The notes below the pieces were generated by a model. It was not told the origin of the DNA, ran no database searches, and saw only the letters and a list, made by a program, of their open reading frames with translations. Both the position numbers and the translations under genes were made by a program. A DNA stretch of 64,000 nt from Bacteroidales bacterium (GTDB lineage: Bacteria > Bacteroidota > Bacteroidia > Bacteroidales > UBA932), in contig SUYO01000006.1 of assembly GCA_015060385.1 (NCBI GenBank), positions 1 to 64,000 on the forward strand, given 5' to 3'. Below, piece by piece: positions 129 to 59,109 of the stretch (its first letter is position 1; each line of letters begins with the position of its first letter).

Positions 129-210
129 GTAAGTGTCATAGGTGGTCCTGCCCCGGTAGGCTTCGCCGACAGCCCCGAGGGGTCTGGGGTCTTCCCTCCG
201 CTCCGAATGG

Positions 211-542
211 TCCGTGATATACCCGGTTTTCCCGGACAGGTCAGCGAAATACAGCATTGTGTCCGTAAAATCAGCGGTTTTTCCGGACAGGTCAGTCAAA
301 TTGCATATGTTGTCCGTGAAATCGGCGGTTTTTCCGGATGGGTCAGCGAAATTCAGCATTGTGTCCGTGAAATCGGCGGTTTTCCCGGATGGGTCAGTCA
401 AATTGCATATGTTGTCCGTAAAATCAGCGGTTTTTCCGGATGGGTCAGTCAAATTCAGCATTGTGTCCGTGAAATCGGGGGTTTTCCCGGATGGGTCAGC
501 GAAATACAGCATTGTGTCCGTAAAATCAGCGGCTTTTCCGGA
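211..542. repeat. Array of seven 51-bp-phased TCCG/TCCGGA units (REP-like)
   Basis: TCCG boxes at 211, 262, 313, 364, 415, 466, 517 (exact 51-bp steps), each followed 20 bp later by (T/C)CCGGA. Two linker subtypes occur (...cagcattgtg and ...gcatatgttg). Confidence 0.95.
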
Positions 543-651
543 CAGGGGATCTGCTTCAGAGGGCGTTGCGTGACTGACACCCTCCTCCTGAACTGTTGAT
601 CTGGCAGGAAGTTTGAGATTTGCTGACACAAACTTTAAAACGAACAAAGAC

Positions 652-16269: not shown

Positions 16270-16974
16270 ATGAAACGCAAGGAAATATTGCAGGCGCCGA
16301 TGGGGGAGACAAAGGTCCTTCTCCATACCTGCTGCGCCCCGTGCTCATCAGCAATCATCGAAGCCCTGCTTCAGAACGGAATCACCCCTGTGATCTATTA
16401 CTGCAATCCGAACATATTCCCGAGAGAGGAATATGAGATCCGCAAGAACGAGTGTACCAGGTATGCCGAGTCCCTCGGGCTGGAGATAGTCGATGCCGAC
16501 TATGACCATGAAAACTGGCTCGAGGCGGTAAGAGGTCTTGAAAAGGAACCCGAAAGGGGAGGACGATGCCTGAAATGCTTCAAGCTCCGCCTTCTCCGTA
16601 CTGCAGAATATGCCCGTCAGAGGGGAATCAGGGTGATCACTACCACCCTTGCATCTTCGCGCTGGAAATCGCTTGACCAGATAAACGAAGCAGGCCTCTG
16701 GGCCTGCAGCAATATCTCATCCGGAAATACTGCTGTTTCCCCGGATAAGGTATCAGAAATCAGCAACATATCCGGAAACAACGAGAAAAATCCGGACAAC
16801 ACTGTCGTATGGTGGGACCGTAACTGGAGAAAAGGCGGGCTCCAGGAGCGCCGCCTTCAGATAATCAGGGAATACGGTTTCTACAACCAGCTGTACTGCG
16901 GCTGTGAATTCAGTGCCTTGACGACTACCTCGCATCCGGACCTGACTTCTTCCGGAATCTCGCAGGAATCATAG
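16270..16974 (+). CDS. queH: Epoxyqueuosine reductase QueH, carrying an internal repeat-encoded segment
   Basis: LLHTCCAPCSS, YCNPNIFPREEYEIRKNE, WRKGGLQERRLQIIREYGFYNQLYCGCEFS. Confidence 0.9.
   Translation: MKRKEILQAPMGETKVLLHTCCAPCSSAIIEALLQNGITPVIYYCNPNIFPREEYEIRKNECTRYAESLGLEIVDADYDHENWLEAVRGLEKEPERGGRCLKCFKLRLLRTAEYARQRGIRVITTTLASSRWKSLDQINEAGLWACSNISSGNTAVSPDKVSEISNISGNNEKNPDNTVVWWDRNWRKGGLQERRLQIIREYGFYNQLYCGCEFSALTTTSHPDLTSSGISQES
16720..16796. repeat. Two 51-bp-phased TCCGGA units inside queH
   Basis: Boxes at 16720/16740 and 16771/16791: 20-bp internal and 51-bp unit spacing, as in the other arrays. Confidence 0.93.
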
Positions 16975-52515: not shown

Positions 52516-52568
52516 AAAGCATCAGCGGGTGGGCGGAACACGGCGTTCCGCCCACCCGCTGATGCTTT
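52516..52568 (+). terminator. Very long perfect hairpin downstream of malQ
   Basis: AAAGCATCAGCGGGTGGGCGGAAC-acggc-GTTCCGCCCACCCGCTGATGCTTT: 24-bp perfect stem. Confidence 0.85.
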
Positions 52569-52575
52569 CGGCATA

Positions 52576-52708
52576 CTTGTCCGGAAACCCCTGCTCAAAT
52601 CCGGACAAGTCAACCTTTTGCGCATGTTTGTCCGGAAAAACACAGTTTTTTCCGGACAACATGCCTGAATTTGCACTCACGTCCGGATTTCGGGCACTAT
52701 ATCCGGAC
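52576..52708. repeat. Three 51-bp-phased TCCGGA units abutting the RAYT 3' end
   Basis: TCCGGA at 52580/52600, 52631/52651, 52682/52702. Outer arms TTGTCCGGAAA...TTTCCGGACAA; the middle unit has 13-bp perfect arms. Confidence 0.95.
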
Positions 52709-52710
52709 AG

Positions 52711-53643
52711 TCAGCCTATAAACATTTCATTCAACAGAGAAACATCCAGTTTCAACAGCCGTCTGAGCTGCTGGTTGCTTGCATTGTACTTGAAATGCAG
52801 TTCTTTGGCAATCCTTATCCTTTGGTCAGGAGAAAGGGCTGACAATTGTCTTACATTGAATTCCTCTGCAGAATATCTTGAGGCAACAGCATAGAGCTCA
52901 TCATCAGTGAGGAACACGGTGTCTTTCAGCCTGGATGCAATCTCACTGAATGCTTCGACATTTTTAGTAAGAGAGTTGAAGTAACTTCGGGGATCGTTGA
53001 AGAGACTCTCGCCGAGACTTACATCGCAGAACGATGGGATATATGCTCTTTCACCGTGAAATTTCAGAGCCCCTAACCTTGAGATGTCTCTTACATGTGC
53101 ATATGCCCTTCTGCTGTCATATGTGAGGTCATTGAAGCTGACTGCGGGTATGGATTTCAACAAAGGGTTGAAGTAGGCAATGCCGCTGCCCCACGGATAA
53201 TTATATGGTGTATATGATGACTGTGATACATATGCATTCCTATGAGTGTATATGATTTCGTTTCTAAGTGCTCTAAGATCCTCTATCGGAATTATTTCGG
53301 CCGTGAAGCTCTCCCAGTCAATTATGCGCCCGGACCGTCTGAAGATCCGTTTCATCCTTCCCTTGAAGTCTTCAAACAGTCCCATACATGCTTCCTTCTG
53401 TCCGCAAAGTATCTTGTGGACATGGTTTGACATCAGTTCGAAGGCAACGATTCTGACGCCAGGCTTCCTGCATGCTGATACGGACAGCAGGTTCATGCCT
53501 AAGTCAAAGTCTGTCCCTGATGTGAAGATATTCTGCATCTTTGTCCCATCTGTGCACAGATGCCAGAATGGTCCTTCCTGTAAAAACAGGGCTTCGCATA
53601 TCCTTTCCTTCTCAGCGAAGGAAAGCGATTGATTGTATTTCAT
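52711..53643 (-). CDS. REP-associated tyrosine transposase (RAYT; Y1/HUH transposase with C-terminal HTH-like region)
   Basis: VAFELMSNHVHKILCG (HUH), EIIYTHRNAYVSQSSYTPYNYPWGSG (Y1 Tyr and RAYT-like YPW motif), C-terminal SPDQRIRIAKELHFKYNASNQQLRRLLKLDVSLL. Start placed at 53643 because upstream codons are repeat readthrough. Confidence 0.85.
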   Translation of the reverse strand: MKYNQSLSFAEKERICEALFLQEGPFWHLCTDGTKMQNIFTSGTDFDLGMNLLSVSACRKPGVRIVAFELMSNHVHKILCGQKEACMGLFEDFKGRMKRIFRRSGRIIDWESFTAEIIPIEDLRALRNEIIYTHRNAYVSQSSYTPYNYPWGSGIAYFNPLLKSIPAVSFNDLTYDSRRAYAHVRDISRLGALKFHGERAYIPSFCDVSLGESLFNDPRSYFNSLTKNVEAFSEIASRLKDTVFLTDDELYAVASRYSAEEFNVRQLSALSPDQRIRIAKELHFKYNASNQQLRRLLKLDVSLLNEMFIG

Positions 53644-53660
53644 ATTATAGTGGATTTTAG

Positions 53661-53737
53661 TCCGGGAATCAGTTTGTTTTTCCGGATATACGATAGAAAG
53701 TTGGAGTGTTGTCCGGATTTTAGTGGCTGTTTCCGGA
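53661..53737. repeat. Two 51-bp-phased units upstream of the RAYT start
   Basis: TCCGG(G/A) at 53661/53681 and 53712/53732. Confidence 0.92.
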
Positions 53738-53743
53738 TAGACT

Positions 53744-53983
53744 TCATACAGGCAACCTTTGAATGTCATGTTGGCTCCGGAACGGACGTCTTAGTTTCAG
53801 ACGGGTCCTGTCAAATCCATAAAGTCTTGCAAATAATTCAACTGCATCCCTGAGAGTCCATGCAGATGCAACTTCCATGTTTTCATCACTCAGATGATAG
53901 ACAGTATATGCAGTATGAGGCTCCATGGATTCCCGCTCGATCGTCTGCACTGTCTTAACGTTAAGATAAATATCCATGATCAT
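53744..53983 (-). CDS. Small hypothetical protein upstream of RAYT (79 aa)
   Basis: MEPHTAYTVYHLSDENMEVASAWTLRDAVELFARLYGFDRTRLKLRRPF has protein-like composition and is not antisense to another gene; same strand as RAYT. Confidence 0.45.
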   Translation of the reverse strand: MIMDIYLNVKTVQTIERESMEPHTAYTVYHLSDENMEVASAWTLRDAVELFARLYGFDRTRLKLRRPFRSQHDIQRLPV

Positions 53984-54087
53984 ATGTGTTAAGAATGTTC
54001 ATATGCCATTTGATCGTGGATGGCGAACCAGAAGAGTTCAATGACAGTTCAAATGTACCATTAAAAAATTAATTCCCAAGTCCTCCA

Positions 54088-54217
54088 GCCGTGAAATCAG
54101 TCAAATTTCCGGAGAAAAATACTTTTGAACCTATGTTGTCCGGAATCTGTCAGGAATTTCCGGACAAATGTGCTGAAAAGAGGGTTCTATCCGGTTAATG
54201 CTTATGTTTTCCGGACA
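54088..54217. repeat. Three 51-bp-phased units upstream of susC copy 2
   Basis: Boxes at 54088 (GCCG)/54108, 54139/54159, 54190/54210. Confidence 0.92.
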
Positions 54218-54289
54218 AGATGCTGCCATTGGTCCGAGGATTGCCTTGAAGTCCGTGCGATAATTTTGAATAATTATAAACGGACTTAT

Positions 54290-59011: not shown

Positions 59012-59026
59012 TTCTCTATGACAATA

Positions 59027-59109
59027 TGTCCGGAAATCCCTATGGAAATCCGGACAAGTCGTTCTGAAACAGTAGTTTGTCCGGGAATCCAAATGGTTTT
59101 CCGGACAAA
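59027..59109. repeat. Two 51-bp-phased units downstream of susD copy 2
   Basis: TCCGG at 59029/59049 and 59080/59100; arms TTTGTCCGGGAA...TTTTCCGGACAAA. Confidence 0.93.

Follow-up and report, generated by a model that had tools for sequence, protein, structure and literature searches.

The repeat arrays and the gene they flank

The window, that is, the whole 64-kb stretch of DNA analysed here, carries on its minus strand a RAYT-like Y1/HUH gene (52711..53640) whose product of 309 aa has the HUH motif MSNHVH, a catalytic-type tyrosine in the motif I-x-Y-x-x-R-N and a C-terminal helical domain. The open reading frame as listed is longer (352 aa, start at 53769) and runs through the upstream repeat array; the start codon of relatives corresponds to its codon 44, and therefore the array at 53661/53712 sits just upstream of the gene, outside it. 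What are these repeats? Downstream of the gene lie three hairpin units (units and tracts are given here unstranded). The first (TTGTCCGGAAA..AATCCGGACAA, 52577..52608) folds as single-stranded DNA at -11.4 kcal/mol (z -6.7), the second (52628..52659) has a fold z of -5.3 and the third (52679..52710; z -4.1) abuts the stop codon of the RAYT-like gene. In the spacers between them the sequence has a central A/T tract, TTTT at 52616..52619 and AATTT at 52668..52672. The upstream array consists of a unit with a weaker fold (53658..53689, z -1.9) just before the gene's likely start and a second unit (53709..53740, z -3.8), with AAA at 53697..53699 as the central tract of the spacer. A third array begins with a degenerate unit (54085..54116), in which 7 of 22 arm positions differ, and continues with a hairpin unit at 54136..54167 (z -4.9), a central tract AAAA at 54176..54179 and a last unit, found by the box-pair scan described below, at 54187..54218, upstream of a SusC-like gene. 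Between a glucanotransferase-like gene and the downstream array there is also a GC-rich long inverted repeat (CAGCGGGTGGGCGGAAC..GTTCCGCCCACCCGCTG, 52520-52571), which is probably a terminator. An Rfam scan of the locus gave no family above cut-off and only weak chance matches, mostly on this hairpin (~52520-52571).

A sequence-only reading of the window had described arrays of three, two and three units on both sides of the gene and counted 19 units and 13 steps in all, every step being 51 bp. A rescan of the 64 kb with box pairs, in which only the 20-bp box distance was set and no distance between units was presumed, agrees on each point: 19 units, six arrays and 13 steps, each of 51 bp. Around the gene the units start at 52580, 52631 and 52682, at 53661 and 53712, and at 54088, 54139 and 54190. 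Two dispersed dimers of pitch 51 (16717..16799 and 59026..59108) have starts at 16720 and 16771 and at 59029 and 59080. The remaining array, of seven units with arms TCCGTRAA/TTYCCGGA, follows a partial 5S rRNA gene at the window start (208..545; starts at 211, 262, 313, 364, 415, 466 and 517). When box pairs with at most one mismatch are counted, 14 lie at 20 bp, 7 at 31 and 21 at 51, and every other spacing between 8 and 59 has 0-2. In terms of the hairpin unit, 20 and 31 bp are its two distances from arm to arm. The whole assembly (1.76 Mb, 75% complete) contains the exact N14 box pair 13 times and its reversed control not once; allowing one mismatch, the counts are 47 and 7. Nearly all dispersed copies in this genome are two units 51 bp apart.

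Units of the 5S array alternate in a 102-bp repeat, which makes this array in part a recent tandem duplication. The earlier claim that the spacing is not left over from such duplication is, with this correction, supported by the diverged spacers. A second 5S rRNA end in the same genome (L245, G000:C32 end) has a TCCG array of ten units. The 5S loci of other genomes of the genus have no 50-52 bp array, and therefore the 5S arrays are specific to the window lineage. Their use as tracers of arm replacement at one site was dropped, the other genomes of the genus having no array there.

The protein and its hosts

Is the product of this gene a RAYT? The HxH and the tyrosine are invariant in the family alignment (H73, H75, Y131 and N135 in 41 of 41 members), and Arg134 is kept in at least 90% of the aligned members. 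As judged from its sequence, the window protein combines the HUH motif with a single, putatively catalytic tyrosine, the combination by which a RAYT is recognised. Among the profile libraries, Pfam Y1_Tnp gives the window protein an E of 0.03, below cut-off, and the NCBIfam model of REP-associated tyrosine transposases (NF047646) matches 16 of 41 members (best E 7.6e-11) and not the window protein itself. Profile matches in the PDB are to IS200/IS605 transposases (E 8e-4), with homology over the core only. The AlphaFold model has a mean pLDDT of 94.6, and its best match among solved structures is 4ER8, a complex of the E. coli RAYT with its REP hairpin, at Z 11.5 across 152 residues; an IS200/IS605 transposase comes next at Z 7.0. 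Foldseek also ranks 4ER8 first, though with an E of only 6e-3. In the predicted structure the window protein thus has the RAYT fold, that of TnpAREP. Beyond the HUH core the model confidently predicts the C-terminal helical domain, which, compared alone with solved structures, has no significant match (all E above 2).

According to the named records, the family belongs to Candidatus Cryptobacteroides and other, related Bacteroidales; most of these assemblies come from the gut. A query with the single protein found homologues within its own genus; 24 other families of the order yielded none, and a profile search added shorter matches outside the genus. The window genome itself has several paralogues of the gene. 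Genome contigs were scanned with a profile built on a 12-row family alignment. Most of the genomes are draft metagenome assemblies, in which repeats may be collapsed, and unit counts are to be read as lower bounds.

One pitch, many arms

Per-locus consensuses show a general unit made of a gene-specific arm of ~8-10 bp, AAAA, a variable loop of ~8-10 nt, TTTT and the complementary arm. TCCGGA is the arm of the window gene; other genes have GTGTGC, GAACA, TTCC, GGCCA, GCACG and so on. The cognate element is therefore not the double TCCGGA that had been proposed: arms differ by gene, and the geometry is the conserved part. How far does the 51-bp step extend? The unbiased evidence for its value is a motif-free test, in which the commonest spacing of identical 6-mers within 1.2 kb of the gene was taken at 117 loci; at each locus 50-52 would come up by chance 3 times in 101. 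This spacing is 51 bp at 67 loci, 52 at 10, 102 at 8 and 50 at 4, and it falls at 50-52 in 81 of the 117; the peak at 51 thus reaches well beyond the window, as the sequence-only reading had expected. When capped, the 6-mer totals reach 899 at 51 and 118-256 at 49, 50, 52 and 53, where the value at 52 includes real 52-bp families. The family loci share ancestry, and the excess at 50-52 holds beyond doubt after allowing for relatedness. The repeated words differ from gene to gene while the spacing stays.

Units located with weight matrices lie, at distances below 130 bp, 51 bp apart 259 times, 52 bp 51 times and 50 bp 23 times; as the seeds were picked at lags near 50-52 or double, this supports constancy within a locus and not the value itself. 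The pitch is 50-52 in 39 of 39 protein clusters at 60% identity, the loci having been chosen for such a step. The claim of a fixed step is accordingly right within a gene family and too strict between families, where the step is 50, 51 or 52. Some loci gave false motifs (L105, L080, L149, L154, L169, L208 and others). Beside the genes of distant paralogues there are strong spacings of 48, 57 and 77 bp (L080, G012:C6; L063, G000:C22; L102, G029:C10), and the flanks of another more distant paralogue, L105 (G016:C4:197780-198610), hold ~44 motif matches in alternating 30/44-bp steps with a period of 74, so that rulers may differ in other branches of the family. Beside 28 related genes of organisms outside the genus there is no peak at 50-52.

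Could the pitch simply be inherited from one ancestral array through ordinary tandem duplications beside a transposase gene? Some arrays clearly did grow in this way, as the 102-bp alternation of the 5S array and the near-identical units of the long arrays at L067, L078 and L088 show, and the explanation would also fit the orientation of the arrays up- and downstream of the gene, which are mostly direct copies in 55 cases, inverted in 6 and tied in 12 (a single hairpin is self-palindromic and has no defined orientation). However, arms are wholly different between gene families while the pitch is kept, and spacers have a median identity of 55% within a locus and 29% between loci, yet in 87 usable loci 282 of 290 steps have the length that is commonest at their locus. 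Sequence so diverged should, if unconstrained, show gains and losses of bases too. Dispersed copies, moreover, have in common their arms (82% identity) and not their loops (35%) or spacers (39%). We consider tandem duplication an improbable source of the pitch.

Motifs follow their genes

Protein identity correlates with arm similarity (Mantel r 0.35, reached in 0 of 999 permutations). Counted by strand in 61 genomes, the TCCG motif has 52, 26 and 12 matches in the window genome and two others and 0-2 in the remaining 58, whereas its reversed control has at most one match in any genome. One of the two other TCCG-rich genomes, G032, has a member of the window gene's clade, L067, whose arms are TCCGG. 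In the other, G021, no gene of the clade was found in an assembly that is 77% complete. A TCCG array lies near a contig start in this genome (G021:C52:495-724), and the matching gene may lie past the contig break. G026, which has a member of the clade (L066), carries arms TCCGT/TACGGA that the TCCG pattern does not fit. A second motif, that of L070, has 39 sites in its own genome (G004), two in one other genome of the genus and one in a genome of another family. Nineteen of its places in G004 were inspected, and at 17 the copies form dimers or a trimer; a single step measures 51 bp and the 17 others 52. A dimer in this genome is about 84 bp long. Arms are nearly invariant among these copies while loops and spacers differ, and 52 bp is also the pitch beside L070. 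Because the pitch of L070 is off by one bp from the rest and the G004 copies are all but one at 52, the dispersed copies here follow the pitch of the matching gene. Cognate palindromes on both sides of the gene and elsewhere in the genome are found in full for the window and for G004/L070, and on both sides of the gene at most loci. The co-occurrence of motif and gene proposed from the window is thus supported, with G021 as an exception: the motif is mainly in genomes with the matching gene, and at that gene's pitch. About 2.2 kb upstream of L085 (G024:C72), a second array (CCATCCGTAAAA..TTACGGAC) differs from the gene's own arms (GAGCACGAAAA), as if two families meet.

A very different explanation is that the hairpins are mainly transcription terminators or stems that protect mRNA after genes, unrelated to the transposase gene. 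Several arrays do begin 3-23 bp past the end of an open reading frame, and each unit is able to fold as a hairpin. But why would the arms then be specific to gene family and genome? No T run follows the stems, no Rfam family was found above cut-off, and neither the pitch nor the A/T tract of the spacer has a role in termination. This explanation is highly improbable.

The A/T tract between paired hairpins

Spacers were first described as unrelated. Largely so in sequence, they nevertheless have a central A/T tract in common. In the mean over 85 loci, A/T content peaks at -5, +6 and +/-25.5, counted from the centre of the hairpin, hence 11, 20 and 20 bp apart; eleven doubtful or mis-centred loci were left out by hand from these centred profiles. 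The maximum at +/-25.5 marks an A/T tract of 4-5 positions, placed exactly midway in the spacer that separates two units. The A/T fraction is 0.75 at the spacer centre and 0.39 at its edges (Wilcoxon p = 8e-15), and independently, for 15 dispersed or 5S-adjacent spacers of the window genome, 0.91 at the centre against 0.51 (p 6e-4). In 17 oriented spacers of another genome, positions 10-13 are A or T about equally, with almost no G/C, and one strand is purine-rich. Outside the outermost units the tract is weak, and for this reason it belongs to the pair and not to the single hairpin. A CRISPR-like array was also considered and rejected: arms vary by gene, spacers of ~20 bp have a common central A/T tract, and the copies are dispersed dimers.

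Is the pitch then set on double-stranded DNA? The arrays would in that case be lattices for the C-terminal domain of the RAYT or for a host DNA-bending protein, with all sites on one helix face and a function in chromosome organisation or gene regulation, not in mobility. The distances of 11, 20 and 20 bp between A/T maxima are what such a lattice might show. The centre tract accepts A or T alike and hardly any G/C, as readout through the minor groove or bending would; it is strong only between two units; and a confidently predicted helical domain past the HUH core is at hand. Still, this domain has no significant structural match (E above 2), the averaged A/T profile comes from related loci, and helical phase would leave room for +/-1 bp among the steps of one genome, a variation that is rare. 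We regard this reading as possible, if on the unlikely side. Helical phasing of arms and tracts, already suggested from the window, is plausible from the sequence profile; the A/T maxima fit one face, although a pitch exact to the bp is stricter than phasing needs.

Comparison with known systems

RAYT, REP and BIME are established, regular spacing of REPs in some BIMEs is known (PMC2817692), and E. coli TnpAREP cuts and joins single strands beside its REP (PMC8266576). With the RAYT/TnpAREP and REP/BIME systems of Proteobacteria (E. coli yafM; PMC2817692; PMC8266576) the present family shares the Y1/HUH fold, the one tyrosine, palindromes on both sides of the gene, dispersed palindrome copies, co-diversification of gene and palindrome, and regularly spaced REPs as in BIMEs. 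In contrast to them it has near-perfect palindromes, arrays on the two sides that are mostly direct copies, a pitch of 50-52 bp over many unrelated arms, an extra C-terminal helical domain and the midway A/T tract. It also has no GTAG-type foot: neither GTAG nor CGTC, the tetranucleotide tags of two REP superfamilies, stands at the palindrome's foot in the 44-unit consensus of the window genome or in the per-locus consensuses, and because the tag is absent these are not GTAG-tagged REPs.

REPIN families have constant internal distances (PMC3116915). The REPINs of Pseudomonas fluorescens SBW25 (PMC3116915) resemble the dimers described here in being doublets with a conserved inter-REP distance, a less conserved spacer and clusters that adjoin RAYT genes; their trait of a constant distance with a variable spacer is found in the G004 copies (52 bp, one exception). 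In SBW25, however, the distance depends on the family (71 or 110 bp), whereas nearly the same pitch serves all families here, and the inverted pair of a REPIN makes one long hairpin; here each half can fold as a hairpin of its own, and the self-palindromic arms would allow the long form as well. Bacteroidetes RAYTs with unusual flanking structures were noted earlier, in a paper whose main text is without the words tandem, spacing and array (PMC6006769). These RAYTs of group 5 / subclass 2.6 (PMC6006769) are likewise Y1 proteins with unusual flanking secondary structures copied elsewhere in the genome; their motif is YIH[QN]NP, while the present family has Y-x-x-R-N without the proline and ~305 aa. 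IS200/IS605 elements (IS608, ISDra2) are alike in the HUH fold, in the recognition of hairpins near the ends and in fixed distances from hairpin to cut site; unlike them, the protein here is longer and homologous over the core only, and no insertion-sequence ends were seen. Searches of the open-licence literature on RAYT with Bacteroidetes, on REPIN and on Cryptobacteroides turned up no account of a 50-52 bp pitch. The gene and the kind of palindrome are known, then; a pitch common to many unrelated recognition sequences, together with the paired A/T tract, is new.

A model for the fixed pitch

The explanation that we favour, and hold to be probable, is a RAYT-REP system with a fixed pitch that radiated in Candidatus Cryptobacteroides and relatives and whose dispersed copies are mostly dimers. 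The anatomy, the pitch and the match of the motif to gene and genome are direct observations, and the RAYT fold is seen in the predicted structure. The original proposal of a Bacteroidales RAYT with REP-like arrays is supported by the fold, the co-diversification of gene and arms, the genome-specific motifs and the 51-bp peak of the family. Each gene copy is bordered by its own REP-like hairpins, with specific arms, an AAAA/TTTT inner end of the stem and a loop. Dispersed dimers consist of two such hairpins at a pitch of 50, 51 or 52, constant per gene family, with the A/T tract midway, and longer arrays repeat the step. The protein presumably recognises the arms, and its substrate may be the dimer or one repeat step. 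By analogy with E. coli TnpAREP, the protein probably cuts and rejoins single strands next to the hairpins, with arrays growing by whole steps.

What keeps the step? Since loops and spacers changed and the length did not, the length must be constrained or regenerated. The constant pitch points to a molecular ruler set by the protein, as far as sequence can tell: the protein would need two hairpins at one exact distance, and the step would be kept while loops and spacers drift. Alternatively, a cut at a fixed distance from each hairpin could preserve the step at every rejoining. A host factor, for example a nucleoid protein, could equally be the setter of the pitch. Whether the copies are mobilised and what the ruler consists of are the conjectural parts of the model. 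The loops and spacers of the dispersed copies are largely unrelated, so these copies are old or were made alike by something besides copying. In a bolder and rather doubtful reading, the RAYT-like protein would form an ordered assembly on double-stranded DNA with a repeat length of one 51 (50-52) bp step, reading the arms and the midway A/T tract; the arrays would be docking rails, and recognition would evolve freely while the ruler stays fixed.

Meaning for RAYT-REP biology

RAYT-REP pairs have been studied from few proteobacterial cases, with a spacing that seemed specific to each family. A single group of bacteria now supplies dozens of natural pairs of gene and motif, whose recognition sequence has changed repeatedly at an unchanged spacing. 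These pairs separate two questions that have been tangled: what does the protein read, and what length is measured? They also pose an evolutionary puzzle, namely how all the arms of a genome can change in concert when its loops and spacers do not, and they are a ready panel for the study of specificity switches, of array growth and of whether or not the REP dimer is the mobile unit.
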